Shown here: positions 5,036 through 46,262 of the stretch, piece after piece | Layout of the letters: every line of letters begins with the position of its first letter | How positions within the stretch are numbered: position 1 is the stretch's first letter | NCBI GenBank assembly: GCA_026874595.1 | Contig: CM049309.1 | Coordinates: 27,097,033 to 27,161,032, forward strand | Length of the DNA stretch: 64,000 bases | Source: Sipunculus nudus | Taxonomy: Eukaryota; Annelida; Sipuncula; Golfingiida; Sipunculidae | Direction: 5' to 3' | Position numbers and translations under genes: made by a program | The notes under the pieces: model-generated | Told to the model about the DNA's origin: nothing | Databases searched by the model: none | What the model saw: the letters and a program-made list of their open reading frames with translations, nothing else

Positions 5036-5040
5036 ACACA

Positions 5041-6724: not shown

Positions 6725-7439
6725 TACCATCATACTGACACAGTGACTTACTCGGGGCCGGTCAATGATGTACTATACACACTTCTATCATAATGACTTA
6801 CTCGGGCCGGCCGATGATGTACTGTACACACTTCTATCATCATGACACAGTGACTTATTCGGGGTACGTCAGTGATGTACTGTACACAGTTCTATCATCA
6901 TGACACAGTGACTTATTCGGGGTACGTCAGTGATGTACTGTACACACTTCTATCATCATGACACAGTGACTTATTCGGGGTACGTCAGTGATGTACTGTA
7001 CACACTTCTATTATCATGACACAGTGACTTAATTTCTCAGCGTCCGTCAGTGATGTACTGTACACACTTCTATCATCATGACACAGTGACTTATTCGGGG
7101 TACGTCAGTGATGTACTGTACACAGTTCTATCATTATGACACAGAAACTTACTCGGGGTCCGTCAGTGATGAACTGTACACACTTCTATCATCATGACAC
7201 AGAGACTTACTCGGGGTCCGTCAGTAATGTACTGTACACACTTCTATCATAATGCGAAGTGGCTTATTCGGGTTCCGTCAGTGATGTACTGTACACAAAT
7301 CTATCATCATCACACAGAGACTTATTACTCGGGGTCCGTCAGTAATGTACTGTACACACTTCTATCATCATGACACATTGACTTATTCGGGGTCCGTAAG
7401 TAATGTACTGTATACACTTCTATCATCATGACACAGTGA

Positions 7440-10400
7440 TATACTCGGGGTCCGTCAGTGATGTACTGTACACAATTCTATCATCATGACACAGAGACTT
7501 ACTCGGGGTCCGTCAGTACTGTACTGTACACACTTCTATCATCATGCGAAGTGACTTATTTGGGGTCCGTCAGTGATGAACTGTACACAGTTCTATCATC
7601 ATGACACAGAGACTTTTTCGGGATCCGTCAGTGATGTACTGCAATCACTTCTATCATCATGACACAGTGAATTACTCGGGGTCCGTCAGTGATGTACTGT
7701 ACACACTTCTATCATCATGACACAGTGAATTACTCGGGGTACGTCAGTGATGTTCTGTACACACTTCTATCATCATGACACGGTGACTTACTCGGGGTCC
7801 GTCAGTGATGTACTGTACACACTTCTATCATCATGTCACAGAGACTTACTCGGAACCGGTCAGTGATGTTCTGTACACACTTCTATCATCAACACACAGA
7901 GACTTACTCGGGGTCCGTCAGTGATGTACTGTACACACTTCTATCATAATGACACAGAGACTTACTCGGGGTCCGTCAGTAATGTACAACAATCACTTCT
8001 ATAATCATGACAAGGTGAATTAATCGGGGTCCGTCAATGATGTACTGTACACACTTCTATCATCATGACACAGTGAATTACTCGGGGTACGTCAGTGATG
8101 TTCTGTACACACTTCTATCATCATGACACAGAGACTTACTCGGGGTCCGTCAGTAATGTACAACAATCACTTCTATAATCATGACAAAGTGAATTACTCG
8201 GGGACCGTCAATGATGTACTGTACACACTTCTATCATCATGACACAGTGAATTACTCGGGGTACGTCAGTGATGTTCTGTACACACTTCTATCATCATGA
8301 CACAGAGACTTACTCGGGGTCCGTCAGTAATGTACAACAATCACTTCTATCATCATGACACAGTGAATTACTCGGGGTACGTCAGTGATGTTCTGTACAC
8401 ACTTCTATCATCATGACACAGAGACTTACTCGGGGTCCGTCAGTAATGTACAACAATCACTTCTATAATCATGACAAAGTGAATTACTCGGGGTACGTCA
8501 GTGATGTTCTGTACACACTTCTATCATCATGACACAGTGAATTACTCGGGGTACGTCAGTGATGTTCTGTACACACTTCTATCATCATGACCCAGAGACT
8601 TACTCGGGGTCCGTCAGTAATGTACAACAATCACTTCTATAATCATGACAAAGTGAATTACTCGGGGTACGTCAGTGATGTTCTGTACACACTTCTATAA
8701 TCATGACACAGTGAATTACTCGGGGTACGTCAGTGATGTTCTGTACACACTTCTATCATCATGACACAGTGAATTACTCGGGGTACGTCAGTGATGTTCT
8801 GTACACACTTCTATCATCATGACACAGAGACTTACTCGGGGTCCGTCAGTAATGTACAACAATCACTTCTATAATCATGACAAAGTGAATTACTCGGGGT
8901 ACGTCAGTGATGTTCTGTACACACTTCTATCATCATGACACAGTGAATTACTCGGGGTACGTCAGTGATGTTCTGTACACACTTCTATCATCATGACCCA
9001 GAGACTTACTCGGGGTCCGTCAGTAATGTACAACAATCACTTCTATAATCATGACAAAGTGAATTACTCGGGGTACGTCAGTGATGTTCTGTACACACTT
9101 CTATAATCATGACACAGTGAATTACTCGGGGTATGTCAGTGATGTTCTGTACACACTTCTATCATCATGACACAGTGAATTACTCGGGGTACGTCAGTGA
9201 TGTTCTGTACACACTTCTATCATCATGACACAGTGAATTACTCGGGGTCCGTCAATGATGTACTGTACACACTTCTATCATCATGACACAGTGAATTACT
9301 CGGGGTACGTCAGTGATGTTCTGTACACACTTCTATCATCATGACACAGTGAATTACTCGGGGTACGTCAGTGATGTTCTGTACACACTTCTATCATCAT
9401 GACACAGAGACTTACTCGGGGACCGTCAGTAATGTAAAACAATCACTTCTATAATCATGACAAAGTGAATTACTCGGGGTACGTCAGTGATGTTCTGTAC
9501 ACACTTCTATCATCATGACACAGTGAATTACTCGGGGTACGTCAGTCATGTTCTGTACACACTTCTATCATCAAGACACAGAGACTTACTCGGGGTCCGT
9601 CAGTAATGTACAACAATCACTTCTATCATCATGACACAGTGAATTACTCGGGGTCCGTCAATGATGTACTGTACACACTTCTATCATCATGACACAGTGA
9701 ATTACTCGGGGTCCGTCAATGAAGTACTGTACACACTTCTATCATCATGACACAGAGACTTACTCGGGGTCCGTCAGTAATGTACAACAATCACTTCTAT
9801 CATCATGACACAGTGAATTACTCGGGGTACGTCAGTGATGTTCTGTACACACTTCTATCATCATGACACAGTGAATTACTCGGGGTACGTCAGTGATGTT
9901 CTGTACACACTTCTATCATCATGACACAGAGACTTACTCGGGGTCCGTCAGTAATGTACAACAATCACTTCTATAATCATGACAAAGTGAATTACTCGGG
10001 GTACGTCAGTGATGTTCTGTACACACTTCTATCATCATGACACAGTGAATTACTCGGGGTACGTCAGTGATGTTCTGTACACACTTCTATCATCATGACA
10101 CAGTGAATTACTCGGGGTACGTCAGTGATGTTCTGTACACACTTCTATCATAATGACACAGAGACTTACTCGGGGTCCGTCAGTAATGTACAACAATCAC
10201 TTCTATAATCATGACAAAGTGAATTACTCGGGGTCCGTCAATGATGTACTGTACACACTTCTATCATCATGACAAAGTGAATTACTCGGGGTACGTCAGT
10301 GATGTTCTGTACACACTTCTATCATCATGACACAGTGAATTACTCGGGGTCCGTCAGTGATGTACTGTACACACTTCTATCATCATGACACAGTTAATTA

Positions 10401-16400: not shown

Positions 16401-19400
16401 ATCACTTCTATCATCATGACACAGTGAATTACTCGGGGTACGTCAGTGATGTTCTGTACACACTTCTATCATCATGACACAGTGAATTACTCGGGGTACG
16501 TCAGTGATCTTCTGTACACACTTCTATCATCATGACACAGAGACTTACTCGGGGTCCGTCAGTAATGTACAACAATCACTTCTATAATCATGACAAAGTG
16601 AATTACTCGGGGTCCGTCAGTGATGTTCTGTACACACTTCTATCATCATGACACAGTGAATTACTCGGGGTACGTCAGTGATGTTCTGTACACTCTTCTA
16701 TCACCATGACACAGTGAATTACTCGGGGTACGACAGTGATGTTCTGTACACACTTCTATCATCATGACACAGTGAATTACTCGGGGTCCGTCAATGATGT
16801 ACTGTACACAATTCTATCATCATGACACAGTGAATTACTCGGGGTCCGTCAATGATGTACTGTACACACTTCTGTGATCATGACACGTTTGCTGACTCGG
16901 GGCCGGTCAGTGATGTACTGTACACACTTCTATCATCATGACAAAGGGACTTACTCGGGCCGGTCGGTGATGTTCTGTACACATTTCTATCATCATAACA
17001 CGATTACTTACTCGGGGCCGATCAGTGAAGTACTCTACACACTTCTATCATCATGACACAGTGACTTACTCGGGACCGGTCAGTGATGTACTGTACACAC
17101 TTCTATCATCATGACACAGTGACTTAATTACTCCTGGCTCGTCCGTAATGTATTGTACACACTTCTATCATGATGACACAGTGAATTACTCGGGGTCCGT
17201 CATGTACTGTACACACTTCTTTCATTATGACACAGGGACTTACTCGGGGTCCGTAAGTGATGTACTGTACACATTTCTATCATCATGACACAATGACTTA
17301 TTCGGGGTACGTCAGTGATGTTCTGTACACACTTCTATCATCATGACACAGTGAATTACTAGGGGTACGTCAGTGATGTTCTGTACACACTTCTATCATC
17401 ATGACACAGAGACTTAATTACTCCTGGCTCGTCCGTAATGTATTGTACACACTTCTATCATGATGACACAGTGCATTACTCGGGGTCCGTCAGTGATGTA
17501 CTGTACACAATTCTATCATCATGACACAGAGACTTACTCGGGGTCCGTCAGTACTGTACTGTACACACTTCTATCATCATGCGAAGTGACTTATTTGGGG
17601 TCCGTCAGTGATGAACTGTACACAGTTCTATCATCATGACACAGAGACTTTTTCGGGATCCGTCAGTGATGTACTGCAATCACTTCTATCATCATGACAC
17701 AGTGAATTACTCGGGGTCCGTCAGTGATGTACTGTTCACACTTCTATCATCATGACACAGTGAATTACTCGGGGTACGTCAGTGATGTTCTGTACACACT
17801 TCTATCATCATGACACGGTGACTTACTCGGGGTCCGTCAGTGATGTACTGTACACACTTCTATCATCATGTCACAGAGACTTACTCGGGACCGGTCAGTG
17901 ATGTTCTGTACACACTTCTATCATCAACACACAGAGACTTACTCGGGGGCCGTCAGTGATGTACTGTACACACTTCTATCATAATGACTGAGAGACTTAC
18001 TCGGGGTCCGTCAGTAATGTACAACAATCACTTCTATAATCATGACAAAGTGAATTACTCGGGGTCCGTCAATGATGTACTGTACACACTTCTATCATCA
18101 TGACACAGTGAATTACTCGGGGTACGTCAGTGATGTTCTGTACACACTTCTATCATCATGACACAGAGACTTACTCGGGGTCCGTCAGTAATGTACAACA
18201 ATCACTTCTATAATCATGACAAAGTGAATTACTCGGGGACCGTCAATGATGTACTGTATACACTTCTATCATCATGACACAGTGAATTACTCGGGGTACG
18301 TCAGTGATGTTCTGTACACACTTCTATCATCATGACACAGTGAATTACTCGGGGTACGTCAGTGATGTTCTGTACACACTTCTATCATCATGACACAGAG
18401 ACTTACTCGGGGTCCGTCAGTAATGTACAACAATCAATTCTATAATCATGACAAAGTGAATTACTCGGGGTACGTCAGTGATGTTCTGTACACACTTCTA
18501 TCATCATGACACAGTGAATTACTCGGGGTACGTCAGTGAGGTTCTGTACACACTTCTATCATCATGACACAGAGACTTACTCGGGGTCCGTCAGTAATGT
18601 ACAACAATCACTTCTATAATCATCACAAAGTGAATTAATCGGGGTACGTCAGTGATGTTCTGTACACACTTCTATAATCATGACACAGTGAATTACTCGG
18701 GGTACGTCAGTGATGTTCTGTACACACTTCTATCATCATGACACAGTGAATTACTCGGGGTACGTCAGTGATGTTCTGTACACACTTCTATCATCATGAC
18801 ACAGTGAATTACTCGGGGTACGTCAGTGATGTTCTGTACACACTTCTATCATCATGACACGGTGAATTACTCGGGGTACGTCAGTGCTGTTCTGTACACA
18901 CTTCTATCATCATGACACAGAGACTTACTCGGGGACCGTCAGTAATGTAAAACAATCACTTCTATAATCATGACAAAGTGAATTACTCGGGGTACGTCAG
19001 TGATGTTCTGTACACACTTCTATCATCATGACACAGTGAATTATTCGGGGTCCGTCAGTGATGTACTGTACACACTTCTATCATCATGACACAGTGAATT
19101 ACTCGGGGTACGTCAGTGATGTTCTGTACACACTTCTATCATCATGACACAGAGACTTACTCGGGGTCCGTCAGTAATGTACAACAATCACTTCTATCAT
19201 CATGACACAGTGAATTACTCGGGGTCCTTCAATGATGTACTGTACACACGTCTATCATCATGACACAGTGAATTACTCGGGGTCCGTCAATGAAGAACTG
19301 TACACACTTCTATCATCATGACACAGAGACTTACTCGGGGTCCGTCAGTAATGTACAACAATCACTTCTATCATCATGACACAGTGAATTACTCGGGGTA

Positions 19401-22380
19401 CGTCAGTGATGTTCTGTACACACTTCTATCATCATGACACAGTGAATTACTCGGGGTACGTCAGTGATGTTCTGTACACACTTCTATCATCATGACACAG
19501 AGACTTACTCGGGATCCGTCAGTAATGTACAACAATCACTTCTATAATCATGACAAAGTGAATTACTCGGGGTACGTCAGTGATGATCTGTACACACTTC
19601 TATCATCATGACACAGTGAATTACTCGGGGTACGTCAGTGATGTTCTGTACACACTTCTATCATCATGACACAGTGAATTACTCGGGGTACGTCAGTGAT
19701 GTTCTGTACACACTTCTATCATAATGACACAGAGACTTACTCGGGGTCCGTCAGTAATGTACAACAATCACTTCTATAATCATGACAAAGTGAATTACTC
19801 GGGGTCCGTCAATGATGTACTGTACACACTTCTATCATCATGACAAAGTGAATTACTCGGGGTACGTCAGTGATGTTCTGTACACACATCTATCATCATG
19901 ACACAGTGAATTACTCGGGGTCCGTCAGTGATGTACTGTACACACTTCTATCATCATGACACAGTGAATTACTCGGGGTACGTCAGTGATGTTCTGTACA
20001 CACTTCTATCATCATGACACAGAGACTTATTCGGGGTCCGCCAGTAATGTACAACAATCACTTCTATCATCATGACACAGTGAATTACTCGGGGTCCGTC
20101 AATGATGTACTGTACACACTTCTATCATCATGACACAGAGACTTACTCGGGGTCCGTCAGTAATGTACAACAATCACTTCTATAATCATGACAAAGTGAA
20201 TTACTCGGGGTCCGTCAATGATGTACTGTACACACTTCTATCATCATGACACAGAGACTTACTCGGGGTCCGCCAGTAATGTACAACAATCACTTCTATC
20301 ATCATGACACAGTGAATTACTCGGGGTCCGTCAATGATGTACTGTACACACTTCTATCATCATGACACAGTGAATTACTCGGGGTACGTCAGTGATGTTC
20401 TGTACACACTTCTGTCATCATGACACAGTGAATTACTCGGGGTACGTTATTGATGTACTGTACACACTTCTATCATCATGACACAGTGAATTACTCGGGG
20501 TACGTCAGTGATGTTCTGTACACACTTCTATCATCATGACACAGAGACTTACTCGGGGTCCGTCAGTAATGTACAACAATCACTTCTATAATCATGACAA
20601 AGTGAATTACTCGGGGTCCGTCAATGATGTACTGTACACACTTCTATCATCATGACACAGTGAATTACTCGGGGTACGTCAGTGATGTTCTGTACACACT
20701 TCTATCATCATGACACGGTGACTTACTCGGGGTCCGTCAGTGATGTTCTGTACACACTTCTATCATCATGTCACAGAGACTTACTCAGGACCGGTCAGTG
20801 ATGTTCTGTACACACTTCTATCATCAACACACAGAGACTTACTCGGGGTCCGTCAGTGATGTACTGTACACACTTCTATCATAATGACACAGAGACTTAC
20901 TCGGGGTCCGTCAGTAATGTACAACAATCACTTCTATAATCATGACAAAGTGAATTACTCGGGGTCCATCAATGATGTACTGTACACACTTCTATCATCA
21001 TGACAAAGTGACTTATTCGGGGTCCGTCAGTTATGTACTGCAATCACTTCTATCATCATGACACAGTGACTTACTCGGGACCGGTCAGTGATGTACTGTA
21101 CACACTTCTATCATCATGACACAGTGACTTAATTACTCCTGGCTCGTCTGTAATGTATTGTACACACTTCTATCATGATGACACAGTGAATTACTCGGGG
21201 TCCGTCATGTACTGTACACACTTCTTTCATTATGACACAGGGACTTACTCGGGGTCCGTAAGTGATGTACTGTACACATTTCTATCATCATGACACAATG
21301 ACTTATTCGGGGTACGTCAGTGATGTTCTGTACACACTTCTATCATCATGACACAGTGAATTACTCGGGGTACGTCAGTGATGTTCTGTACACACTTCTA
21401 TCATCATGACACAGAGACTTAATTACTCCTGGCTCGTCCGTAATGTATTGTACACACTTCTATCATGATGACACAGTGAATTACTCGGGGTCCGTCATGT
21501 ACTGTACATACTTCTTTCATTATGACAAAGTGAATTACTCGGGGTCCGTCAATGATGTACTGTACACACTTCTATCATCATGACAAAGTGAATTACTCGG
21601 GGTACGTCAGTGATGTTCTGTACACACTTCTATCATCATGACACAGTGAATTACTCGGGGTCCGTCAGTGATGTACTGTACACACTTCTATCATCATGAC
21701 ACAGTGAATTACTCGGGGTACGTCAGTGATGTTCTGTACACACTTCTATCATCATGACACAGAGACTTACTCGGGGTCCGTCAGTAATGTACAACAATCA
21801 CTTCTATCATCATGACACAGTGAATTACTCGGGGTCCGTCAATGATGTACTGTACACACTTCTATCATCATGACACAGAGACTTACTCGGGGTCCGTCAG
21901 TAATGTACAACAATCACTTCTATAATCATGACAAAGTGAATTACTCGGGGTCCGTCAATGATGTACTGTACACACTTCTATCATCATGACACAGTGAATT
22001 ACTCGGGGTACGTCAGTGATGTTCTGTACACACTTCTATCATCATGACACAGTGAATTACTCGGGGTACGTCAGTGATGTTCTGTACACACTTCTATCAT
22101 CATGACACAGAGACTTACTCGGGGTCCGTCAGTAATGTACAACAATCACTTCTATCATAATGACACAGTGAATTACTAGGGGTCCGTCAATGATGTACTG
22201 TACACACTTCTATCATCATGACACAGTGAATTACTCGGGGTACGTCAGTGATGTACTGTACACACTTCTATCATCATGACACAGTGAATTACTCGGGGTA
22301 CGTCAGTGATGTACTGTACACACTGCTATCATCATGACACAGTGAATTACTCGGGGGTACGTCAGTGATGTTCTGTACAC
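7440..22380 (+). repeat. left half of array: A/B/C monomers in 3.7-10 kb higher-order blocks
   Basis: This part is mostly three subfamilies in changing order. A marker pair, 'gacacggtgact' followed one unit later by 'gtcacagagacttactcgg', recurs at 7777, 12359, 16070, 17812, 20712 and 22569. The spacings are close to whole numbers of monomers: 4582 (79x58), 3711 (64x58 minus 1), 1742 (30x58 plus 2), 2900 (50x58) and 1857 (32x58 plus 1). The minus 1 is explained by a single-base deletion in a G-run near 13131. The rare variant 'gtactgtactgtacac' followed by 'atcatgcgaagtgactta' occurs at 7516 and again at 17551, an offset of 10,035 bp. Rare 'tttcatcatgac' variants at 11771 and 15482 show the same 64-unit offset. 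Confidence 0.85.
16874..17222 (+). repeat. marker cassette of divergent monomers (first of eight copies)
   Basis: Six consecutive non-standard units form a recognisable cassette: 'gtttgctgactcgg' (58 bp), 'gacaaagggacttactcggg' (57 bp), 'aacacgattacttactcggg' (58 bp), a 'gggaccggtcag' unit (58 bp), 'ttaattactcctggctcg' (62 bp), and a 54-bp unit ending 'ttctttcattat'. The cassette start recurs at 26273, 30793, 34617, 36244, 38388, 42210 and 43826; some later copies keep only the first part. Its first three units give a 60-codon open frame that is identical or nearly so in most copies. I attribute that to recent duplication rather than to coding selection. Confidence 0.85.
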
Positions 22381-25300
22381 ACTTCTATCATCATGACACA
22401 GAGACTTACTCGGGGTCCGTCAGTAATGTACAACAATCACTTCTATAATCATGACAAAATGAATTACTCGGGGTCCGTCAATGATGTACTGTACACACTT
22501 CTATCATCATGACACAGTGAATTACTCGGGGTACGTCAGTGATGTTCTGTACATACTTCTATTATCATGACACGGTGACTTACTCGGGGTCCGTCAGTGA
22601 TGTACTGTACACACTTCTATCATCATGTCACAGAGACTTACTCGGGACCGGTCAGTGATGTTCTGTACACACTTCTATCATCAACACACAGAGACTTACT
22701 CGGGGTCCGTCAATGATGTACTGTACACACTTCTATCATCATGACAAAGTGACTTATTCGGGGTCCGTCAGTTATGTACTGCAATCACTTCTATCATCAT
22801 GACACAGTGAATTACTAGGGGTACGTCAGTGATGTTCTGTACACACTTCTATCATCATGACACAGTGAATTACTCGGGGTACGTCAGTGATGTTCTGTAC
22901 ACACTTCTATCATCATGACACAGAGACTTACTCGGGGTCCGTCAGTAATTTACAACAATCACTTCTATAATCATGACAAAGTGAATTACTCGGGGTCCGT
23001 CAATGATGTACTGTACACTCCTCTATCATCATGACACAGTGAATTACTCGGGGTACGTCAGTGATGTTCTGTACACACTTCTATCACCATGACACAGTGA
23101 ATTACTCGGGGTACGTCAGTGATGTTCTGTACACACTTCTATCATCATGACACAGTGAATTACTCGGGGTCCGTCAATGATGTACTGTACATACTTCTAT
23201 CATCATGACACAGTGAATTACTCGGGGTCCGTCAATGATGTACTGTACACACTTCTATCATCATGACACAGTGAATTACTCGGGGTACGTCAGTGATGTT
23301 CTGTACACACTTCTATCATCATGACACGGTGACTTACTCGGGGTCCTTCAGTGATGTACTGTACACACTTCTATCATCATGTCACAGAGACTTACTCGGG
23401 GTCCGTCAGTTATGTACTGCAATCACTTCTATCATCATGACACAGTGAATTACTCGGGGTCCGTCAGTGAAGTACTGTACACACTTCTATCATCATGACA
23501 CAGTGAATTACTCGGGGTACGTCAGTGATGTTCTGTACACACTTCTATCATCATGACACAGTGAATTACTCGGGGTACGTCAGTGATGTTCTGTACACAC
23601 TTCTATCATCATGACACAGAGACTTACTCGGGGTACGTCAGTGATGTTCTGTACACACTTCTATCATCATAACACGATTACTTACTCGGGGCCGATCAGT
23701 GAAGTACTCTACACACTTCTATCATCATGACACAGTGACTTACTCGGGACCGGTCAGTGAAGTACTCTACACACTTCTATCATCATGACAAAGTGACTTA
23801 TTCGGGGTCCGTCAGTTATGTACTGCAATCACTTCTATCATCATGACACAGTGAATTACTCGGGGTCCGTCAATGATGTACTGTACACACTTCTATCATC
23901 ATGACACAGTGAATTACTCGGGGTACGTCAGTGATGTTCTGTACACACTTCTATCATCATGACACAGAGACTTACTCGGGGTCCGTCAGTGATGTACTGT
24001 ACACACTTCTATCATCATGTCACAGAGACTTACTCGGGACCGGTCAGTGATGTTCTGTACACACTTCTATCATCGACACACAGAGACTTACTCGGGGTCC
24101 GTCAGTGATGTACTGTACACACTTCTATCATAATGACACAGAGACTTACTCGGGGTCCGTCAGTAATGTACAACAATCACTTCTATAATCATGACAAAGT
24201 GAATTACTCGGGGTCCGTCAATGATGTACTGTACACACTTCTATCATCATGACACAGTGAATTACTCGGGGTACGTCAGTGATGTTCTGTACATACTTCT
24301 ATTATCATGACACGGTGACTTACTCGGGGTCCGTCAGTGATGTACTGTACACACTTCTATCATCATGTCACAGAGACTTACTCGGGACCGGTCAGTGATG
24401 TTCTGTACACACTTCTATCATCAACACACAGAGACTTACTCGGGGTCCGTCAATGATGTACTGTACACACTTCTATCATCATGACAAAGTGACTTATTCG
24501 GGGTCCGTCAGTTATGTACTGCAATCACTTCTATCATCATGACACAGTGAATTACTAGGGGTACGTCAGTGATGTTCTGTACACACTTCTATCATCATGA
24601 CACAGTGAATTACTCGGGGTACGTCAGTGATGTTCTGTACACACTTCTATCATCATGACACAGAGACTTACTCGGGGTCCGTCAGTAATTTACAACAATC
24701 ACTTCTATAATCATGACAAAGTGAATTACTCGGGGTCCGTCAATGATGTACTGTACACTCCTCTATCATCATGACACAGTGAATTACTCGGGGTACGTCA
24801 GTGATGTTCTGTACACACTTCTATCACCATGACACAGTGAATTACTCGGGGTACGTCAGTGATGTTCTGTACATACTTCTATCATCATGACACAGTGAAT
24901 TACTCGGGGTCCGTCAATGATGTACTGTACATACTTCTATCATCATGACACAGTGAATTACTCGGGGTCCGTCAATGATGTACTGTACACACTTCTATCA
25001 TCATGACACAGTGAATTACTCGGGGTACGTCAGTGATGTTCTGTACACACTTCTATCATCATGACACGGTGACTTACTCGGGGTCCTTCAGTGATGTACT
25101 GTACACACTTCTATCATCATGTCACAGAGACTTACTCGGGGTCCGTCAGTTATGTACTGCAATCACTTCTATCATCATGACACAGTGAATTACTCGGGGT
25201 CCGTCAGTGAAGTACTGTACACACTTCTATCATCATGACACAGTGAATTACTCGGGGTACGTCAGTGATGTTCTGTACACACTTCTATCATCATGACACA

Positions 25301-25860
25301 GTGAATTACTCGGGGTACGTCAGTGATGTTCTGTACACACTTCTATCATCATGACACAGAGACTTACTCGGGGTACGTCAGTGATGTTCTGTACACACTT
25401 CTATCATCATAACACGATTACTTACTCGGGGCCGATCAGTGAAGTACTCTACACACTTCTATAATCATGACACAGTGACTTACTCGGGACCGGTCAGTGA
25501 AGTACTCTACACACTTCTATCATCATGACAAAGTGACTTATTCGGGGTCCGTCAGTTATGTACTGCAATCACTTCTATCATCATGACACAGTGAATTACT
25601 CGGGGTCCGTCAATGATGTACTGTACACACTTCTATCATCATGACACAGTGAATTACTCGGGGTACGTCAGTGATGTTCTGTACACACTTCTATCATCAT
25701 GACACAGAGACTTACTCGGGGTCCGTCAGTGATGTACTGTACACACTTCTATCATCATGTCACAGAGACTTACTCGGGACCGGTCAGTGATGTTCTGTAC
25801 ACACTTCTATCATCAACACACAGAGACTTACTCGGGGTCCGTCAGTGATGTACTGTACAC
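22381..25860 (+). repeat. two-copy 1,740-bp higher-order repeat
   Basis: 22381-24120 and 24121-25860 are direct tandem copies, each 30 monomers of 58 bp. Comparing them line by line I find six single-base differences (for example 'catcgacaca' at 24071 versus 'catcaacaca', and 'aaaat' versus 'aaagt' near 22457), which is about 99.7% identity. A third copy begins at 25861 but leaves the pattern after roughly 90 bases. Individual monomers within one copy differ far more from each other than the two copies do, so the whole block was duplicated recently. Confidence 0.95.
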
Positions 25861-26272
25861 ACTTCTATCATAATGACACAGAGACTTACTCGGGGTCCGT
25901 CAGTAATGTACAACAATCACTTCTATAATCATGACAAAGTGAATTACTCGGGGTCCGTCAGTGAAGTACTGTACACACTTCTATCATCATGACACAGTGA
26001 ATTACTCGGGGTACGTCAGTGATGTTCTGTACACACTTCTATCATCATGACACAGTGAATTACTCGGGGTACGTCAGTGATGTTCTGTACACACTTCTAT
26101 CATCATGACACAGAGACTTACTCGGGGTACGTCAGTGATGTTCTGTACACACTTCTATCATCATGACACAGAGACTTACTCGGGGTCCGTCAGTAATGTA
26201 CAACAATCACTTCTATAATCATGACAAAGTGAATTACTCGGGGTCCGTCAATGATGTACTGTACACACTTCT

Positions 26273-29200: not shown

Positions 29201-32200
29201 GTCAGTGATGTTCTGTACATACTTCTATCATCATGACACGGTGACTTACTTGGGGTCCGTCAGTGATGTACTGTACACACTTCTATCATCATGTCACAGA
29301 GACTTACTCGGGACCGGTCAGTGATGTTCTGTACACACTTCTATCATCAACACACAGAGACTTATTCGGGGTCCGTCAGTTATGTACTGCAATCACTTCT
29401 ATCATCATGACACAGTGAATTACTCGGGGTACGTCAGTAATGTTCTGTACACACTTCTATCATAATGACACAGTGAATTACTCGGGGTACGTCAGTGATG
29501 TTCTGTACACACTTCTATCATCATGACACAGAGACTTACTCGGGGTCCGTCAGTAATGTACAACAATCACTTCTATAATCATGACAAAGTGAATTACTCG
29601 GGGTCCGTCAATGATGTACTGTACACTCTTCTATCATCATGACACAGTGAATTACTCGGGGTACGTCAGTGATGTTCTGTACATACTTCTATCATCATGA
29701 CACGGTGACTTACTTGGGGTCCGTCAGTGATGTACTGTACACACTTCTATCATCATGTCACAGAGACTTACTCGGGACCGGTCAGTGATGTTCTGTACAC
29801 ACTTCTATCATCAACACACAGAGACTTATTCGGGGTCCGTCAGTTATGTACTGCAATCACTTCTATCATCATGACACAGTGAATTACTCGGGGTACGTCA
29901 GTAATGTTCTGTACACACTTCTATCATAATGACACAGTGAATTACTCGGGGTACGTCAGTGATGTTCTGTACACACTTCTATCATCATGACACAGAGACT
30001 TACTCGGGGTCCGTCAGTAATGTACAACAATCACTTCTATAATCATGACAAAGTGAATTACTCGGGGTCCGTCAATGATGTACTGTACACTCTTCTATCA
30101 TCATGACACAGTGAATTACTCGGGGTACGTCAGTGATGTTCTGTACACACTTCTATCACCATGACACAGTGAATTACTCGGGGTACGTCAGGGATGTTCT
30201 GTACACACTTCTATCATCATGACACAGTGAATTACTCGGGGTCCGTCAATGATGTACTGTACATACTTCTATCATCATGACACAGTGAATTACTCGGGGT
30301 ACGTCAATGATGTACTGTACACACTTCTATCATCATGACACAGTGAATTACTCGGGGTACGTCAGTGATGTTCTGTACACACTTCTATCATCATGACACG
30401 GTGACTTACTCGGGGTCCGTCAGTGATGTACTGTACACACTTCTATCATCATGTCACAGAGACTTACTCGGGACCGGTCAGTGATGTTCTGTACACACTT
30501 CTATCATCAACACACAGAGACTTACTCGGGGTCCGTTAGTGATGTACTGTACACACTTCTATCATAATGACACAGAGACTTACTCGGGGTCCGTCAGTAA
30601 TGTACGACAATCACTTCTATAATCATGACAAAGTGAATTACTCGGGGTCCGTCAATGATGTACTGTACAAACTTCTATCATCATGACAAAGTGACTTATT
30701 CGGGGTCCGTCAGTTATGTACTGCAATCACTTCTATCATCATGACACAGTGAATTACTCAGGGTCCGTCAGTGATGTATTGTACATACTTCTGTGATCAT
30801 GACACGTTTGCTGACTCGGGGCCGGTCAGTGATGTACTGTACACACTTCTATCATCATGACAAAGGGACTTACTCGGGCCGGTAGGTGATGTTCTGTACA
30901 CATTTCTATCATCATAACACGATTACTTACTCGGGGCCGATCAGTGAAGTACTCTACACACTTCTATCATCATGACACAGTGACTTACTCGGGACCGGTC
31001 AGTGATGTACTGTACACACTTCTATCATCATGACACAGTGACTTAATTACTCCTGGCTCGTCCGTAATGTATTGTACACACTTCTATCATGATGACACAG
31101 TGAATTACTCGGGGTCCGTCATGTACTGTACACACTTCTTTCATTATGACACAGGGACTTACTCGGGGTACGTCAGTGATGTTCTGTACATACTTCTATC
31201 ATCATGACACGGTGACTTACTTGGGATCCGTCAGTGATGTACTGTACACAATTCTATCATCATGTCACAGAGACTTACTCGGGACCGGTCAGTGATGTTC
31301 TGTACACACTTCTATCATCAACACACAGAGACTTACTCGGGGTCCGTCAATGATGTACTGTACACACTTCTATCATCATGACAAAGTGACTTATTCGGGG
31401 TCCGTCAGTTATGTACTGCAATCACTTCTATCATCATGACACAGTGAATTACTCGGGGTACGTCAGTGATGTTCTGTACACACTTCTATCATCATGACAC
31501 AGTGAATTACTCGGGGTACGTCAGTGATGTTCTGTACACACTTCTATCATCATGACACAGTGAATTACTCGGGGTCCGTCAATGATGTACTGCAATCACT
31601 TCTATCATCATGACACAGTGAATTACTCGGGGTCCGTCAATGATGTACTGTACACACTTCTATCATCATGACACAGTGAATTACTCGGGGTACGTCAGTG
31701 ATGTTCTGTACACACTTCTATCATCATGACACGGTGACTTACTCGGGGTCCGTCAGTGATGTACTGTACACACTTCTATCATCATGTCACAGAGACTTAC
31801 TCGGGACCGTTCAGTGATGTTCTGTACACACTTCTATCATCAACACACAGAGACTTACTCGGGGTCCGTCAGTGATGTACTGTACACACTTCTATCATAA
31901 TGACACAGAGACTTACTCGGGGTCCGTCAGTAATGTACAACAATCACTTCTATAATCATGACAAAGTGAATTACTCGGGGTCCGTCAGTGAAGTACTGTA
32001 CACACTTCTATCATCATGACAAAGTGACTTATTCGGGGTCCGTCAGTTATGTACTGCAATCACTTCTATCATCATGACAAAGGGACTTACTCGGGCCGGT
32101 CGGTGATGTTCTGTACACATTTCTATCATCATAACACGATTACTTACTCGGGGCCGATCAGTGAAGTACTCCACACTTCTATCATCATGACACAGTGACT

Positions 32201-34616
32201 TACTCGGGACCGGTCAGTGAAGTACTCTACACACTTCTATCATCATGACAAAGTGACTTATTCGGGGTCCGTCAGTTATGTACTGCAATCACTTCTATCA
32301 TCATGACACAGTGAATTACTCGGGGTCCGTCAATGATGTACTGTACACACTTCTATCATCATGACACAGTGAATTACTCGGGGTACGTCAGTGATGTTCT
32401 GTACACACTTCTATCATCATGACACAGAGACTTACTCGGGGTCCGTCAGTGATGTACTGTACACACTTCTATCATCATGTCACAGAGACTTACTCGGGAC
32501 CGGTCAGTGATGTTCTGTACACACTTCTATCATCAACACACAGAGACTTACTCGGGGTCCGTCAGTGATGTACTGTACACACTTCTATCATCATGACAAA
32601 GTGACTTATTCGGGGTCCGTCAGTTATGTACTGCAATCACTTCTATCATCATGACACAGTGAATTACTCGGGGTACGTCAGTGATGTTCTGTACACACTT
32701 CTATCATCATGACACAGTGAATTACTCGGGGTACGTCAGTGATGTTCTGTACACACTTCTATCATCATGACACAGAGACTTACTCGGGGTCCGTCAGTAA
32801 TGTACAACAATCACTTCTATAATCATGACAAAGTGAATTACTCGGGGTCCGTCAATGATGTACTGTACACTCTTCTATCATCATGACACAGTGAATTACT
32901 TGGGGTACGTTAGTGATGTTCTGTACACACTTCTATCACCATGACACAGTGAATTACTCGGGGTACGTCAGTGATGTTCTGTACACACTTCTATCATCAT
33001 GACACAGTGAATTACTCGGGGTCCGTCAAAGATGTACTGTACATACTTCTATCATCATGACACAGTGAATCACTCGGGGTACGTCAGTGATGTTCTGTAC
33101 ACACTTCTATCATCATGACACAGTGAATTACTCGGGGTACGTCAGTGATGTTCTGTACACACTTCTATCATCATGACACCGAGACTTACTCGGGGTCCGT
33201 CAGTAATGTACAACAATCACTTCTATCATCATGACACAGTGAATTACTCGGGGTCCGTCAATGATGTACTGTACACACTTCTATCATTATGACACAGTGA
33301 ATTACTCGGGGTACGTCAGTGATGTTCTGTACACACTTCTATCATCATGACACAGAGACTTACTCGGGGTCCGTCAGTAATGTACAACAATCACTTCTAT
33401 AATCATGACAAAGTGAATTACTCGGGGTCCGTCAATGATGTACTGTACACACTTCTATCATCATGACACAGTGAATTACTCGGGGTACGTCAGTGATGTT
33501 CTGTACATACTTCTATCATCATGACACGGTGACTTACTTGGGGTCCGTCAGTGATGTACTGTACACACTTCTATCATCATGTCACAGAGACTTACTCGGG
33601 ACCGGTCAGTGATGTTCTGTACACACTTCTATCATCAACACACAGAGACTTATTCGGGGTCCGTCAGTTATGTACTGCAATCACTTCTATCATCATGACA
33701 CAGTGAATTACTCGGGGTACGTCAGTAATGTTCTGTACACACTTCTATCATAATGACACAGTGAATTACTCGGGGTACGTCAGTGATGTTCTGTACACAC
33801 TTCTATCATCATGACACAGAGACTTACTCGGGGTCCGTCAGTAATGTACAACAATCACTTCTATAATCATGACAAAGTGAATTACTCGGGGTCCGTCAAT
33901 GATGTACTGTACACTCTTCTATCATCATGACACAGTGAATTACTCGGGGTACGTCAGTGATGTTCTGTACACACTTCTATCACCATGACACAGTGAATTA
34001 CTCGGGGTACGTCAGTGATGTTCTGTACACACTTCTATCATCATGACACAGTGAATTACTCGGGGTCCGTCAATGATGTACTGTACATACTTCTATCATC
34101 ATGACACAGTGAATTACTCGGGGTCCGTCAATGATGTACTGTACACACTTCTATCATCATGACACAGTGAATTACTCGGGGTACGTCAGTGATGTTCTGT
34201 ACACACTTCTATCATCATGACACGCTGACTTACTCGGGGTCCGTCAGTGATGTACTGTACACACTTCTATCATCATGTCACAGAGACTTACTCGGGACCG
34301 GTCAGTGATGTTCTGTACACACTTCTATCATCAACACACAGAGACTTACTCGGGGTCCGTCAGTGATGTACTGTACACACTTCTATCATAATGACACAGA
34401 GACTTACTCGGGGTCCGTCAGTAATGTACGACAATCACTTCTATAATCATGACAAAGTGAATTACTCGGGGTCCGTCAATGATGTACTGTACAAACTTCT
34501 ATCATCATGACAAAGTGACTTATTCGGGGTCCGTCAGTTATGTACTGCAATCACTTCTATCATCATGACACAGTGAATTACTCAGGGTCCGTCAGTGATG
34601 TATTGTACATACTTCT
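26273..34616 (+). repeat. long higher-order blocks starting at the marker cassette (4,520 and 3,824 bp)
   Basis: Cassette starts at 26273, 30793 and 34617 divide this stretch into two related blocks. 26273-27340 matches 30793-31860 at an offset of 4,520. After a rearranged junction, about 27780 onward matches 32070 onward at an offset of 4,288. The difference in block length is accounted for partly by a 464-bp internal duplication present only in the first block. Shared rare variants such as 'gtccgtcaaagatgta' (28735 and 33023) and 'gtgaatcactcgg' confirm the pairing. Confidence 0.85.
29177..30104 (+). repeat. 464-bp (8-monomer) tandem duplication
   Basis: 29177-29640 and 29641-30104 are adjacent copies of an eight-unit segment that contains the variants 'acttacttggggtccg' and 'cgtcagtaatgttctgta'. 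The corresponding place in the next block (about 33460-33930) has the segment only once. Confidence 0.9.
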
Positions 34617-36547
34617 GTGATCATGACACGTTTGCTGACTCGGGGCCGGTCAGTGATGTACTGTACACACTTCTATCATCATGACAAAGGGACTTACTCG
34701 GGCCGGTCGGTGATGTTCTGTACACATTTCTATCATCATAACAGGATTACTTACTCGGGGCCGATCAGTGAAGTACTCTACACACTTCTATCATCATGAC
34801 ACAGTGACTTACTCGGGACCGGTCAGTGATGTACTGTACACACTTCTATCATCATGACACAGTGACTTAATTACTCCTGGCTCGTCTGTAATGTATTGTA
34901 CACACTTCTATCATGATGACACAGTGAATTACTCGGGGTACGTCAGTGATGTTCTGTACACACTTCTATCATCATGACACAGAGACTTACTCGGGGTCCG
35001 TCAGTAATGTACAACAATCACTTCTCTAATCATGACAAAGTGAATTACTCGGGGTCCGTCAATGATGTACTGTACACACTTCTATCATCATGACACAGTG
35101 AATTACTCGGGGTACGTCAGTGATGTTCTGTACATACTTCTATCATCATGACACGGTGACTTACTTGGGGTCCGTCAGTGATGTACTGTACACACTTCTA
35201 TCATCATGTCACAGAGACTTACTCGGGACCGGTCAGTGATGTTCTGTACACACTTCTATCATCAACACACAGAGACTTATTCGGGGTCCGTCAGTTATGT
35301 ACTGCAATCACTTCTATCATCATGACACAGTGAATTACTCGGGGTACGTCAGTAATGTTCTGTACACACTTCTATCATAATGACACAGTGAATTACTCGG
35401 GGTACGTCAGTGATGTTCTGTACACACTTCTATCATCATGACACAGAGACTTACTCGGGGTCCGTCAGTAATGTACAACAATCACTTCTATAATCATGAC
35501 AAAGTGAATTACTCGGGGTCCGTCAATGATGTACTGTACACTCTTCTATCATCATGACACAGTGAATTACTCGGGGTACGTCAGTGATGTTCTGTACACA
35601 CTTCTATCACCATGACACAGTGAATTACTCGGGGTACGTCAGTGATGTTCTGTACACACTTCTATCATCATGACACAGTGAATTACTCGGGGTCCGTCAA
35701 TGATGTACTGTACATACTTCTATCATCATGACACAGTGAATTACTCGGGGTCCGTCAATGATGTACTGTACACACTTCTATCATCATGACACAGTGAATT
35801 ACTCGGGGTACGTCAGTGATGTTCTGTACACACTTCTATCATCATGACACGCTGACTTACTCGGGGTCCGTCAGTGATGTACTGTACACACTTCTATCAT
35901 CATGTCACAGAGACTTACTCGGGACCGGTCAGTGATGTTCTGTACACACTTCTATCATCAACACACAGAGACTTACTCGGGGTCCTTCAGTGATGTACTG
36001 TACACACTTCTATCATAATGACACAGAGACTTACTCGGGGTCCGTCAGTAATGTACGACAATCACTTCTATAATCATGACAAAGTGAATTACTCGGGGTC
36101 CGTCAATGATGTACTGTACAAACTTCTATCATCATGACAAAGTGACTTATTCGGGGTCCGTCAGTTATGTACTGCAATCACTTCTATCATCATGACACAG
36201 TGAATTACTCAGGGTCCGTCAGTGATGTATTGTACATACTTCTGTGATCATGACACGTTTGCTGACTCGGGGCCGGTCAGTGATGTACTGTACACACTTC
36301 TATCATCATGACAAAGGGACTTACTCGGGCCGGTCGGTGATGTTCTGTACACATTTCTATCATCATAACACGATTACTTACTCGGGGCCGATCAGTGAAG
36401 TACTCTACACACTTCTATCATCATGACACAGTGACTTACTCGGGACCGGTCAGTGATGTACTGTACACACTTCTATCATCATGACACAGTGACTTAATTA
36501 CTCCTGGCTCGTCTGTAATGTATTGTACACACTTCTATCATGATGAC
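33294..36547 (+). repeat. two-copy 1,627-bp higher-order repeat
   Basis: 33294-34920 is repeated as 34921-36547. The rare variant 'cacgctgact' occurs once in each copy (34221 and 35848, offset 1,627), and the cassette starts at 34617 and 36244 have the same offset. 1,627 is 28x58 plus 3, because the cassette units are not all 58 bp. Both ends of the duplicated segment fall inside the 'cagtgaattactcgggg' part of a monomer, consistent with unequal exchange in register. Confidence 0.9.
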
Positions 36548-39500
36548 ACAGTGAATTACTCGGGGTCCGTCATGTACTGTACACACTTCTTTCATTATGA
36601 CACAGGGACTTACTCGGGGTACGTCAGTGATGTTCTGTACATACTTCTATCATCATGACACGGTGACTTACTTGGGGTCCGTCAGTGATGTACTGTACAC
36701 ACTTCTATCATCATGTCACAGAGACTTACTCGGGACCGGTCAGTGATGTTCTGTACACACTTCTATCATCAACACACAGAGACTTACTCGGGGTCCGTCA
36801 ATGATGTACTGTACACACTTCTATCATCATGACAAAGTGACTTATTCGGGGTCCGTCAGTTATGTACTGCAATCACTTCTATCATCATGACACAGTGAAT
36901 TACTCGGGGTACGTCAGTGATGTTCTGTACACACTTCTATCATCATGACACAGTGAATTACTCGGGGTACGTCAGTGATGTTCTGTACACACTTCTATCA
37001 TCATGACACAGTGAATTACTCGGGGTCCGTCAATGATGTACTGCAATCACTTCTATCATCATGACACAGTGAATTACTCGGGGTCCGTCAATGATGTACT
37101 GTACACACTTCTATCATCATGACACAGTGAATTACTCGGGGTACGTCAGTGATGTTCTGTACACACTTCTATCATCATGACACGGTGACTTACTCGGGGT
37201 CCGTCAGTGATGTACTGTACACACTTCTATCATCATGTCACAGAGACTTACTCGGGACCGTTCAGTGATGTTCTGTACACACTTCTATCATCAACACACA
37301 GAGACTTACTCGGGGTCCGTCAGTGATGTACTGTACACACTTCTATCATAATGACACAGAGACTTACTCGGGGTCCGTCAGTAATGTACAACAATCACTT
37401 CTATAATCATGACAAAGTGAATTACTCGGGGTCCGTCAGTGAAGTACTGTACACACTTCTATCATCATGACAAAGTGACTTATTCGGGGTCCGTCAGTTA
37501 TGTACTGCAATCACTTCTATCATCATGACAAAGGGACTTACTCGGGCCGGTCGGTGATGTTCTGTACACATTTCTTTCATCATAACACGATTACTTACTC
37601 GGGGCCGATCAGTGATGTACTGTACACACTTCTATCATAATGACACAGAGACTTACTCGGGGTCCGTCAGTAATGTACAACAATCACTTCTATAATCATG
37701 ACAAAGTGAATTACTCGGGGTCCGTCAATGATGTACTGTACACTCTTCTATCATCATGACACAGTGAATTACTCGATGTACGTCAGTGATGTTCTGTACA
37801 CACTTCTATCACCATGACACAGTGAATTACTCGGGGTACGTCAGTGATGTTCTGTACACACTTCTATCATCATGACACAGTGAATTTCTCGGGGTCCGTC
37901 AATGATGTATTGTACATACTTCTATCATCATGACACAGTGAATTACTCGGGGTCCGTCAATGATGTACTGTACACACTTCTATCATCATGACACAGTGAA
38001 TTACTCGGGGTACGTCAGTGATGTTCTGTACACACTTCTATCATCATGACACGGTGACTTACTCGGGGTCCGTCAGTGATGTACTGTACACACTTCTATC
38101 ATCATGTCACAGAGACTTACTCGGGACCGGTCAGTGATGTTCTGTACACACTTCTATCATAATGACACAGAGACTTACTCGGGGTCCGTCAGTAATGTAC
38201 GACAATCACTTCTATAATCATGACAAAGTGAATTACTCGGGGTCTGTCAATGATGTACTGTACAAACTTCTATCATCATGACAAAGTGACTTATTCGGGG
38301 TCCGTCAGTTATGTACTGCAATCACTTCTATCATCATGACACAGTGAATTACTCAGGGTCCGTCAGTGATGTATTGTACATACTTCTGTGATCATGACAC
38401 GTTTGCTGACTCGGGGCCGGTCAGTGATGTACTGTACACACTTCTATCATCATGACAAAGGGACTTACTCGGGCCGGTCGGTGATGTTCTGTACACATTT
38501 CTATCATCATAACACGATTACTTACTCGGGGCCGATCAGTGAAGTACTCCACACTTCTATCATCATGACACAGTGACTTACTCGGGACCGGTCAGTGAAG
38601 TACTCTACACACTTCTATCATCATGACAAAGTGACTTATTCGGGGTCAGTCAGTTATGTACTGCAATCACTTCTATCATCATGACACAGTGAATTACTCG
38701 GGGTCCGTCAATGATGTACTGTACACACTTCTATCATCATGACACAGTGAATTACTCGGGGTACGTCAGTGATGTTCTGTACACACTTCTATCATCATGA
38801 CACAGAGACTTACTCGGGGTCCGTCAGTGATGTACTGTACACACTTCTATCATCATGTCACAGAGACTTACTCGGGACCGGTCAGTGATGTTCTGTACAC
38901 ACTTCTATCATCAACACACAGAGACTTACTCGGGGTCCGTCAGTGATGTACTGTACACACTTCTATCAAAATGACACAGAGACTTACTCGGGGTCCGTCA
39001 GTAATGTACAACAATCACGTCTATAATCATGACAAAGTGAATTACTCGGGGTCCGTCAGTGAAGTACTGTACACACTTCTATCATCATGACACAGTGAAT
39101 TACTTGGGGTACGTCAGTGATGTTCTGTACACACTTCTATCATCATGACACAGTGAATTACTCGGGGTACGTCAGTGATGTTCTGTACACACTTCTATCA
39201 TCATGACACAGAGACTTACTCGGGGTACGTCAGTGATGTTCTGTACACACTTCTATCATCATGACACAGAGACTTACTCGGGGTCCGTCAGTAATGTACA
39301 ACAATCACTTCTATAATCATGACAAAGTGAATTACTCGGGGTCCGTCAATGATGTACTGTACACTCTTCTATCATCATGACACAGTGAATTACTCGGGGT
39401 ACGTCAGTGATGTTCTGTACACACTTCTATCACCATGACACAGTGAATTACTCGGGGTACGTCAGTGATGTTCTGTACACATTTCTATCATCATGACACA

Positions 39501-42500: not shown

Positions 42501-42650
42501 CTATCATGATGACACAGTGAATTACTCGGGGTCCGTCATGTACTGTACACACTTCTTTCATTATGACACAGGGACTTACTCGGGGTCCGTAAGTGATGTA
42601 CTGTACACATTTCTATCATCATGACACAATGACTTATTCGGGGCCCGTGA
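36548..42650 (+). repeat. right-centre of array with 1,911-bp offset duplication
   Basis: Units from about 38454 to 39612 recur from 40365 to 41523 at an offset of 1,911. They share landmarks such as 'atttctatcatcatgac' followed by a 'cagtaatgtacaacaatc' unit at 39481 and 41392. The marker cassette starts at 38388 and 42210. The same subfamilies are present as in 26-36 kb. Confidence 0.8.
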
Positions 42651-45116
42651 GTGATGTACTGTACACACTTCTGTCATCATGATACAGTGAATTACTCGGG
42701 GTCCGTCAGTGATGTACTGTACACACTTCTATCATCATGACACAGTGACTTACTTGGGGACGGTCAATGATGTACTGTACACACTTCTATCAACATAACA
42801 CAGTGACTTAATTACTCGGGGCCCGTCAGTGATGTACTGTACACACTTCTAACATCATGACACAGTGACTTAATTACTCAGGTTCCGTCAGTTATGTACT
42901 GTACACACTTATATCATCACGACACAATGACTTGGTGTCCGTCAGTGATGTACTGTACATACTTCTACCATCACGACACAATGACTTGGTGTCCGTCAGT
43001 GTTGTACTGTACATACTTCTATCATCACGACACAATGACTTGGTGTCCGTCAGTGTTGTACTGTACATACTTCTATCATCACGACACAATGACTTGGTGT
43101 CCGTAAGTGATGTACTGTACACATTTCTATCATCATGACACAGTGAATTACTCGGGGTACGTCAGTGATGTTCTGTACACACTTCTATCACCATGACACA
43201 GTGAATTACTCGGGGTACGTCAGTGATGTTCTGTACACACTTCTATCATCATGACACAGTGAATTACTCGGGGTCCGTCAATGATGTACTGTACATACTT
43301 CTATCATCATGACACAGTGAATTACTCGGGGTCCGTCAATGATGTACTGTACACACTTCTATCATCATGACACAGTGAATTACTCGGGGTACGTCAGTGA
43401 TGTTCTGTACACACTTCTATCATCATGACACGGTGACTTACTCGGGGTCCGTCAGTGATGTACTGTACACACTTCTATCATCATGTCACAGAGACTTACT
43501 CGGGACCGGTCAGTGATGTTCTGTACACACTTCTATCATCAACACACAGACACTTACTCGGGGTCCGTCAGTGATGTACTGTACACACTTCTATCATAAT
43601 GACACAAGAGACTTACTCGGGGTCCGTCAGTAATGTACAACAATCACTTCTATAATCATGACAAAGTGAATTACTCGGGGTCCGTCAATGATGTACTGTA
43701 CACACTTCTATCATCATGACAAAGTGACTTATTCGGGGTCCGTCAGTTATGTACTGCAATCACTTCTATCATCATGACACAGTGAATTACTCGGGGTCCG
43801 TCAGTGATGTATTGTACATACTTCTGTGATCATGACACGTTTGCTGACTCGGGGCCGGTCAGTGATGTACTGTACACACTTCTATCATCATGACAAAGGG
43901 ACTTACTCGGGCCGGTCGGTGATGTTCTGTACACATTTCTATCATCATAACACGATTACTTACTCGGGGCCGATCAGTGAAGTACTCTACACACTTCTAT
44001 CATCATGACACAGTGACTTACTCGGGACCGGTCAGTGATGTACTGTACACACTTCTATCATCATGACACAGTGACTTAATTACTCCTGGCTCGTCCGTAA
44101 TGTATTGTACACACTTCTATCATGATGACACAGTGAATTACTCGGGGTCCGTCATGTACTGTACACACTTCTTTCATTATGACACAGGGACTTACTCGGG
44201 GTCCGTAAGTGATGTACTGTACACATTTCTATCATCATGACACAATGACTTATTCGGGGCCCGTGAGTGATGTTACTGTAGACACTTCTATTATCACGAC
44301 ATAATGACTTGGAGACCGTCAGTGTTGTACCGTACATACTTCTATCATCATGACACAGTGAATTACTCGGGGTCCGTCAGTGATGTACTGTACACAGTTC
44401 TATTATCATGACACAGAGACTTACTTTTGGATCTTCAGTGATGTACTGTACACACTTCTGTCATCATGATACAGTGAATTACTCGGGGTCCGTCAGTGAT
44501 GTACTGTACACACTTCTATCATCATGACACAGTGACTTACTTGGGGACGGTCAATGATGTACTGTACACACTTCTATCAACATAACACAGTGACTTAATT
44601 ACTCGGGGCCCGTCAGTGATGTACTGTACACACTTCTAACATCATGACACAGTGACTTAATTACTCAGGTTCCGTCAGTTATGTACTGTACACACTTATA
44701 TCATCACGACACAATGACTTGGTGTCCGTCATTGATGTACTGTACATACTTCTACCATCACGACACAATGACTTGGTGTCCGTCAGTGTTGTACTGTACA
44801 TACTTCTATCATCACGACACAATGACTTGGTGTCCGTCAGTGTTGTACTGTACATACTTCTATCATCACGACACAATGACTTGGTGTCCGTCAGTGTTGT
44901 ACCGTACACACTTCTATCATCACGACACAATGACTTGGTGTCCATCAGTGTTGTACTGTACATACTTCTATCGTCATGACACAATGACTTGGTGTCCGTC
45001 AGTGTTGTACCGTACACACTTCTATCATCACGACACAATGACTTGGTGTCCGTCAGTGTTGTACTGTACATACTTCTATCGTCATGACACAGTGACTTAC
45101 TCGGCTCCGTCACTGA
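42651..45116 (+). repeat. right end of array with 54-bp monomer derivative
   Basis: From about 42917 to 43100 (four units) and 44704 to 45090 (about seven) the monomer is 54 bp. The 'ttactcgggg' core is replaced by 'acttggtgtccg', so units read 'cgacacaatgacttggtgtc' and so on. The two sub-arrays and their left flank are copies of one another (offset 1,616 up to about 44260, then 1,787 after a ~171-bp insertion of variant units). Since 54 is 3x18, both strands stay open and give 18-residue peptide repeats: DTMTWCPSV-type on plus and SMYSTTLTDTKSLC-type on minus. No start context or unique sequence suggests real translation. Confidence 0.9.
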
Positions 45117-46262
45117 TGATTGAATGATCTTTATTTTCCTCCATGCTGGATAGCTCAACCAAGTATTACAAAATATGCAAGGTAAGTTAGAACACAAACG
45201 TTATGACAAAATCAAAATTTTTAAAACATCAGTTCTCATTCTGATCAGTGAAAAGTACAAGTTTACGAAATACAGAATCAGATAAAACAGGACTGCATTT
45301 GCCAAAGCAGACTTCGAGGAAACTCAATTTCGGGCAAATTACATAATTCAAAAATCGTGTCTGCATCGAGAGAAACAAAACATCTTTTCCCATAATACCT
45401 CTCGGAAAGGACACAATGCCGTACACTGCAACATGATATGCATAACAGTATCTTGTACATTTCCCCCCACATATATCACAAACTACATCACCCAGGAGCT
45501 CCGGAATAGATAATAAATGAATCAGAAATAATAACGATTTCTTTTAGTTCAGGCTGTACTCAGGAAATCTAAAACTATCACCTTTTATGTTTATCGATGA
45601 GATCCATAAAGCCTGTTCATGGGCATGTACAGTAGTCCTAACTAAACGCCGCCACCACGTTTTTAAAGGAAATTGACCACCATGGATGTATGAACGTAGA
45701 TATGAAAACAGAATAAATTTGTTAAGTACGTAGACTATATCAGGTATAAAACCAGAAACTTTTGTATGGACCATAAATTTCCAGTCATAAAGCTTCAAAC
45801 AAAATATTTGTTTGGCAATGATGTTTGGGCTAAGTGTAATAAGCCTGTGAAGAAACATTAGTTTTTTGCTTGCCGGAAATCTTCGATTTTCGCAAGCTGG
45901 TTGGTCAGTCGCGGATGTCTGTCTGTTTGTCTGTTTGTCTGTCATCTCTCTACAGGTCTCAATTTTGCACCAATCACTTTCAAACTTACACACTTTATAG
46001 ATAATCAATTTGGTCAGATAAATCACCATTAAACAATACTGCACATTTGCTATTAAAAAGCCAGTTACGAAACATAAGCCAGATCGAGCCTATTCGATAT
46101 CCCAATACAATACAGTTTATACATTAATCCGTTCCACCAAATCTTATCAAATGCAGATTCCAGATCCAGAAAACACGACAACACTTTTCCTTCCCTGTCA
46201 CAATGATATAGAACCCTCGATATTCTTAATAGATACACTCCCTTACCCTATAAGTAAACTCG
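45117..46262 (-). mobile_element. decayed LINE, RT fragment and C-terminal region
   Basis: On the minus strand, 46240-46065 encodes a reverse transcriptase fragment containing FLDLESAFDKIWWNG, the block around the first catalytic aspartate of LINE RTs. After a frameshift and a deletion of the central RT, a different frame from about 45880 to 45229 gives the typical LINE C-terminal region: a 'GFIPDIVYVLNKF' stretch, then 'GGQFPLKTWWRRLVRTTV', then a CDIC...H cysteine/histidine motif near 45460. It is broken by one in-frame TAA at 45546-45544. An AATAAA signal on the minus strand near 45131-45136 and a short 'attcaatcatca' tail end the element exactly where satellite monomers begin. A stretch of tetranucleotide repeat (gtct) at 45917-45943 lies within the gap. 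The clade is uncertain. The copy is certainly inactive. Confidence 0.85.

Follow-up and report, generated by a model that had tools for sequence, protein, structure and literature searches.

What kind of element is the 58-bp tandem array that fills 60% of a 64,000-nt stretch of the Sipunculus nudus genome (assembly GCA_026874595.1, contig CM049309.1, here C4, positions 27097033-27161032; hereafter the window)? It could be one representative of a satellite family, a functional block of its chromosome, the repeat portion of a transposable element, a product of assembly, or a repeat that arose and grew in place. An earlier note, made from the letters of this stretch alone, had described it as a satellite array. 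We consider it very probable that it is instead a locus-specific minisatellite, or variable number tandem repeat (VNTR), that arose once here and grew through successive unequal exchanges or a comparable process. We favor this explanation because the unit occupies a single locus, because blocks of monomers have been copied within the array, and because three smaller minisatellites of the same genome (unit lengths 41, 46 and 54 bp) show the same privacy.

Extent and composition of the array

Wraparound alignment places the array at 6729-45118 of the window (38,390 bp), within a few bases of the 6725-45116 given in the earlier note, and resolves it into 664 rows, in agreement with the roughly 660 head-to-tail monomers and the 60% of the window reported there. 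Tandem Repeats Finder returns an array at 6815-45118 with period 58, 661.1 copies, 86% matches and a score of 54064. Exactly 58 bp is the length of 594 rows; the others measure 56 bp (20 rows), 57 bp (17), 62 bp (15), 54 bp (11), 59 bp (2) and 37, 49, 61, 55 and 5 bp (one each), the rows at both ends being partial. The window contains no N bases and no row exceeds 62 bp; therefore the array harbors no insertion, and its description as uninterrupted stands. Core patterns match the plus strand only, indicating a single orientation, and a 36-place core with up to 3 mismatches matches 605 times in the window, compared with a mean of 0 in 100 dinucleotide-preserving shuffles.

The 664 rows comprise 212 different monomers and average 91.7% identity to the consensus and 86.5% to one another. 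Average-linkage clustering cut at 0.12 recovers three larger groups (406, 122 and 48 rows), with the remaining 88 of 664 rows scattered over 16 small groups; the 'clear subfamilies' of the earlier note are borne out in part.

A single locus in the genome

The genome searched comprises 1,426,538,692 bases in 153 contigs, with C4 accounting for 97.53 Mb. At 3 or fewer mismatches, all 296 matches to the 58-base consensus and all 608 matches to a 35-place core lie inside the window array. Relaxing the search to a 20-base core at 2 or fewer mismatches yields 621 matches (620 forward, 1 reverse; its reversed control yields 1), 615 of them in the window, leaving about 6 short matches outside it, one of which is on C1 among the matches listed. 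A query of 101 bases taken at the left edge matches the array only, as 24 pieces near the array's right end (best 2 of 3 candidates). Within the window, four core patterns detected no monomer beyond 6729-45118; in the 40 kb on each side of it the 20-base core, allowed up to 5 mismatches, matches once, at the full 5. The 38 kb of the array amount to 0.003% of the 1.4265-Gb genome.

Minisatellites or VNTRs are defined by head-to-tail units of roughly 10-100 bp. The array has this arrangement and unit size (58 bp, 664 rows) and, within about 10% divergence, the single location of a large locus-specific VNTR. Classical satellite DNA, by contrast, is an abundant family that usually occupies several chromosomes and lies in heterochromatin, whereas this monomer is present at one locus on C4. 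Because the 58- and 35-place patterns have no copy outside the locus (the 20-base core has only the few short matches mentioned above), a very large locus-specific minisatellite fits better than a satellite family, which makes the latter label doubtful; a dispersed satellite is unsupported by the whole-genome monomer counts. Literature searches gave no name for the monomer, and its letters, searched as five stretches, were absent from the 5.39 million papers covered. An exact 22-base core was absent from IMG/VR and from GTDB genome contigs, and a viral or prokaryotic copy was rejected on this ground.

Block copies within the array

Pairs of identical monomers are in excess at lags of 28, 94, 66, 30, 74 and 131 monomers (53, 51, 45, 39, 37 and 31 pairs, respectively): when the monomer order was shuffled 300 times, none of the 400 lags considered exceeded 30 pairs. 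Runs of consecutive identical monomers reach 15, versus at most 4 in 50 shuffles. The best block pairs at 14 lags span 15-46 monomers (867-2666 bp) at 98.3-99.8% identity, with copies 1627-9971 bp apart, and the longest exact duplicate within the array is 959 bp. At lag 30 a block of 33 monomers exceeds its own offset, and at lag 28 the block is 27 monomers long; both have the appearance of stretches of about 1.6-1.9 kb duplicated directly in tandem. In label strings of the monomers, a seven-monomer cassette (I E D C G H J) appears along the array in six complete and two partial copies. The coordinates of these features are collected in Table 1.

Exact twins of monomers are commoner within approximately 6.7-16 kb and within approximately 26-40 kb of the window than across these regions, indicating that the left and right parts of the array are partly distinct. 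An exact twin exists for 536 of 664 rows overall, and the proportion differs between the homogeneous interior (516/624) and the less homogenised first 20 (9/20) and last 20 rows (11/20). The array thus lacks both the uniformity of a simple series of similar monomers and the periodicity of a regular higher-order repeat, and the combination of block copies and less homogenised ends fits the outcome expected of repeated unequal exchange.

Table 1. Features of the array and its surroundings (window coordinates unless another stretch is named)
Feature	Position	Strand	Remarks
Left flank, single-copy	6000-6728	.	Genome query 6000-6740
Tandem array, 664 rows of ~58 bp, uninterrupted	6729-45118	+	Tandem Repeats Finder, wraparound alignment, core patterns
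Left edge, less homogenised	6729-7863	+	Mean best identity 0.947 vs 0.996 in interior; twins for 9/20 rows
Cassette I E D C G H J, first copy	16853-17257	+	Includes 56-, 57- and 62-bp units
33-monomer block and copy 1740 bp on	22366-24279 / 24106-26019	+	99.6% alike; copies overlap as in a tandem block duplication
Longest block pair found, 46 monomers, 2666 bp	29496-32161 / 34947-37612	+	99.6% alike
27-monomer block and copy 1627 bp on	33320-34888 / 34947-36515	+	99.8% alike; contains the 959-bp longest exact duplicate
Internal run of four 54-bp units	42892-43107	+	Unit type elsewhere at right edge only
Right edge	44679-45118	+	Seven 54-bp units (44679-45056), then a partial stretch; twins for 11/20 rows
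3' part of dispersed LINE-like repeat	45117-46247	-	TTGA-like 3' tail at array right end; genome query, weak RVT_1
Arrays of 41- and 54-bp units	L008:1858-2173, L008:6234-8154, L009:956-2242		Within 20 kb left of window

Other minisatellites of the same genome

Tandem arrays near the window have units of 41, 54, 24, 219 and 334-338 bp. All 26 pattern matches to the 41-bp unit and all 9 to the 54-bp unit fall in the neighborhood left of the window. A further array, of 46-bp units, was encountered in one of ten 8-kb control windows (98 copies, 4.5 kb, C4:85004386-85008910) and contains all 69 genome matches to its unit. The 41-, 46- and 54-bp units, the three that were searched, are therefore each private to their own loci, and each occurs on one strand. 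By eye, the match positions of the 46-bp array also suggest a 462-bp (10-unit) higher-order period.

An origin of the 58-bp array from one of these neighboring or control arrays was considered and rejected: four of five units align to the 58-bp consensus no better than shuffled sequences do (177-247 of 300 shuffles score at least as high). The 41-bp unit reaches an alignment score of 16, equaled or exceeded by 26 of 300 shuffles, and we do not count it as related.

Tests for function

The array is judged not to be coding because 58 is not a multiple of 3, so that the reading frame rotates, and because only two frames of at least 110 aa touch the array, in and beside the 54-bp run. A structured RNA was likewise rejected: no Rfam family reaches its gathering score in the window, and the one three-monomer stretch that was folded does not stand out from its shuffles, 88 of 200 of which did equally well or better (z -0.15). 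CpG decay is not seen either, the observed/expected ratio of the array (0.76) lying above those of both the left (0.67) and right (0.57) flanks. At the level of sequence, nothing found would point to a function for the array.

Origin and growth of the array

The 58-bp minisatellite would have arisen once at its present locus and reached 38 kb through successive rounds of unequal exchange, or of a comparable process such as break-induced replication, with each growth event copying a block of tens of monomers. Recombination between misaligned copies is the likely process, the length of the array presumably varies between individuals (the feature for which VNTRs are named), and the array probably lacks a sequence-specific function.

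This explanation must be tempered by several observations that weigh against it. The 58-bp array is the largest seen among the stretches sampled, approximately 8.5 times the size of the next (4.5 kb, 46-bp units), and such a difference might need a special reason. Substitution events are over-dispersed among monomer columns (345 events, mean 5.9, variance 16.5, in 661 of 664 rows after exclusion of 3 rows with more than 4 gaps), and columns C20 and C32 have 2 and 1 events, respectively, versus 5-18 at other C columns. Such unevenness could hint at constraint, although recombination together with base bias gives the same picture. Finally, the core-pattern searches could miss monomer copies more than about 10% diverged. 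The array nevertheless sits at the large end of the locus-specific VNTR kind, and no feature tested falls outside that kind.

The flanks bear on a different origin, in which the monomers were the tandem-repeat part of a transposable element and expanded at one insertion. Tandem repeats carried by Helitrons are described for oysters (PMC7492417), with mobile-element association of satellites likewise in PMC8268682; the C1q matches described below give this genome a bivalve-like look, and here a repeat abuts the array on its right. We infer that this repeat resembles a long interspersed nuclear element (LINE) from a weak match to reverse transcriptase in a short frame at 46068-46247 (RVT_1, E 3.5e-4, 20.8 bits vs a cut-off of 29.6). 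It is dispersed in the genome, with 66 matched pieces among the best 40 of 1208 candidates, and pieces starting at query position 3-12 are 73-92% alike. In the two other copies whose 3' junction was read (L003 and L004, of the fetched L003-L005), however, its 3' end borders DNA unrelated to the monomer, so the LINE-like element adjoins the array without sign of being its source. The 741 bp on the left (6000-6740) are single-copy in the genome (one candidate and one match, itself), and the 'transposon-rich flanks' of the earlier note accordingly describe the right junction and not these 741 bp. A Helitron- or Helentron-type repeat would reside within a many-copy dispersed element, whereas no copy of the monomer was found outside its locus, these 741 bp of left flank are single-copy and the two LINE-like copies read at their junction lack it there. 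A transposon-borne origin is therefore very unlikely. The two edge regions, searched separately for inverted repeats, contain only short chance-like pairs (2 and 3).

Chromosome-specific function, for instance as a centromere or pericentromeric block, would also account for a long, uninterrupted array confined to a single site, 27.8% of the way along C4 (27.10 of 97.53 Mb). Centromeric satellites are bound by the centromeric histone and lie at the primary constriction. In arrays of period at least 10 and length at least 200, the 80 kb around the window have 17.0% of their bases and the controls 6.5%. This enrichment is weak, as the controls are few and uneven (range 0 to 45%) while the flanks inside the window, 25.6 kb in all, have 7.7%. 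Chromosomes other than C4 do not carry the monomer, and an array of 38 kb would be small by the standards of animal centromeric satellites. We regard a centromeric satellite as highly improbable, and give equally little credence to a C4-specific functional element (a centromere seed, chromatin boundary or meiotic recombination site) that is on no other chromosome and has its length under selection. An array length created by assembly is likewise highly improbable: against it stand the diversity of the monomers, the absence of N bases, and a block order that is irregular, unlike that of a looped assembly. Because monomers average 86.5% alike and no exact duplicate is longer than 959 bp, this worry is small: long reads should resolve the array.

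A fully assembled 38-kb single-locus array with 212 variants offers a clean record of minisatellite growth, in which block sizes, their order and the decay toward the edges can be read. Should its length vary, the array could also be of use as a VNTR marker in this species. Its importance would be greater only if a function were shown.

Other repeats and genes

Several observations concern other sequences in the region and genome. Within the LINE-like repeat, a segment of about 150 bp (45858-46008) is 99% identical at 14 or more other places on 8 contigs (C1, C2, C3, C4, C6, C8, C10 and C14), some with partial tandem copies alongside (best 40 of 1208 candidates); it is probably a young short mobile or amplifying element. 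Arrays with a period of 306-346 bp (166 bp in part) occur at 55260-56138 of the window and at L009:2979-3891, L010:1294-2980 and L013:1828-3434. Words such as AACAGGGCACAAAT or GGAGGTCCATGAAAA recur among them by eye, on one strand or the other, and these arrays appear to represent a tandem-forming repeat that recurs in the region.

Frames resembling a long terminal repeat (LTR) retrotransposon lie at L011 ~577-5793 (C4:27171609-27176825), with matches to RVT_1 (E 3.4e-20) and the integrase domain rve (E 4.2e-9); one frame of this element has what we take to be CCHC-like motifs. On the plus strand of the window (57534-61269), a series of open frames 138-341 aa long, five of which were scanned without any Pfam match above the family cut-off, is perhaps the remains of an unnamed mobile element. 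Elsewhere, at C8:24669294-24690476, four C1q-domain matches of equal score follow one another at intervals of 6954-6956 bp and probably form a tandem gene array of recent origin. Genome-wide, 150 of 203 C1q candidates were scored, giving at least 141 matches; C1q genes are expanded in bivalves, and a bivalve would be likely from this count.

Comparison with known systems

Within the same genome, the 58-bp array resembles the 41-, 46- and 54-bp minisatellites in having its unit in one region only and on one strand. It differs in that those arrays measure at most 4.5 kb, and their units are not convincingly related in sequence to its own.

In a bivalve, the oyster Crassostrea gigas, the CgiSat satellites are also tandem arrays, and according to PMC8268682 some families are confined to a single chromosome and CgiSat01 has a longest standalone array of about 40 kb. 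CgiSat01, however, is built of 164/166-bp units and is 91.4% associated with mobile elements according to the same paper, unlike the 58-bp array at its one locus.

The nearest published kind is that of the human locus-specific VNTR arrays of Warburton et al. 2008 (PMC2588610). That paper surveys human tandem arrays longer than 10 kb, of which 16 are large and locus-specific with units of 20-1823 bp; DYZ19 measures 246.4 kb, and the other locus-specific arrays reach up to 50 kb, without a match to any known class of repeat. The Xp22.33 array, as described there, extends over 18 kb of 61-bp units in a complex arrangement whose higher-order repeats are irregular and measure 1.6 and 2.5 kb. The S. 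nudus array is about twice as long and belongs to another animal; the likeness is close, and consists in a similar unit length, a single locus and irregular higher-order repeats, which here take the form of 0.9-2.7-kb block copies.

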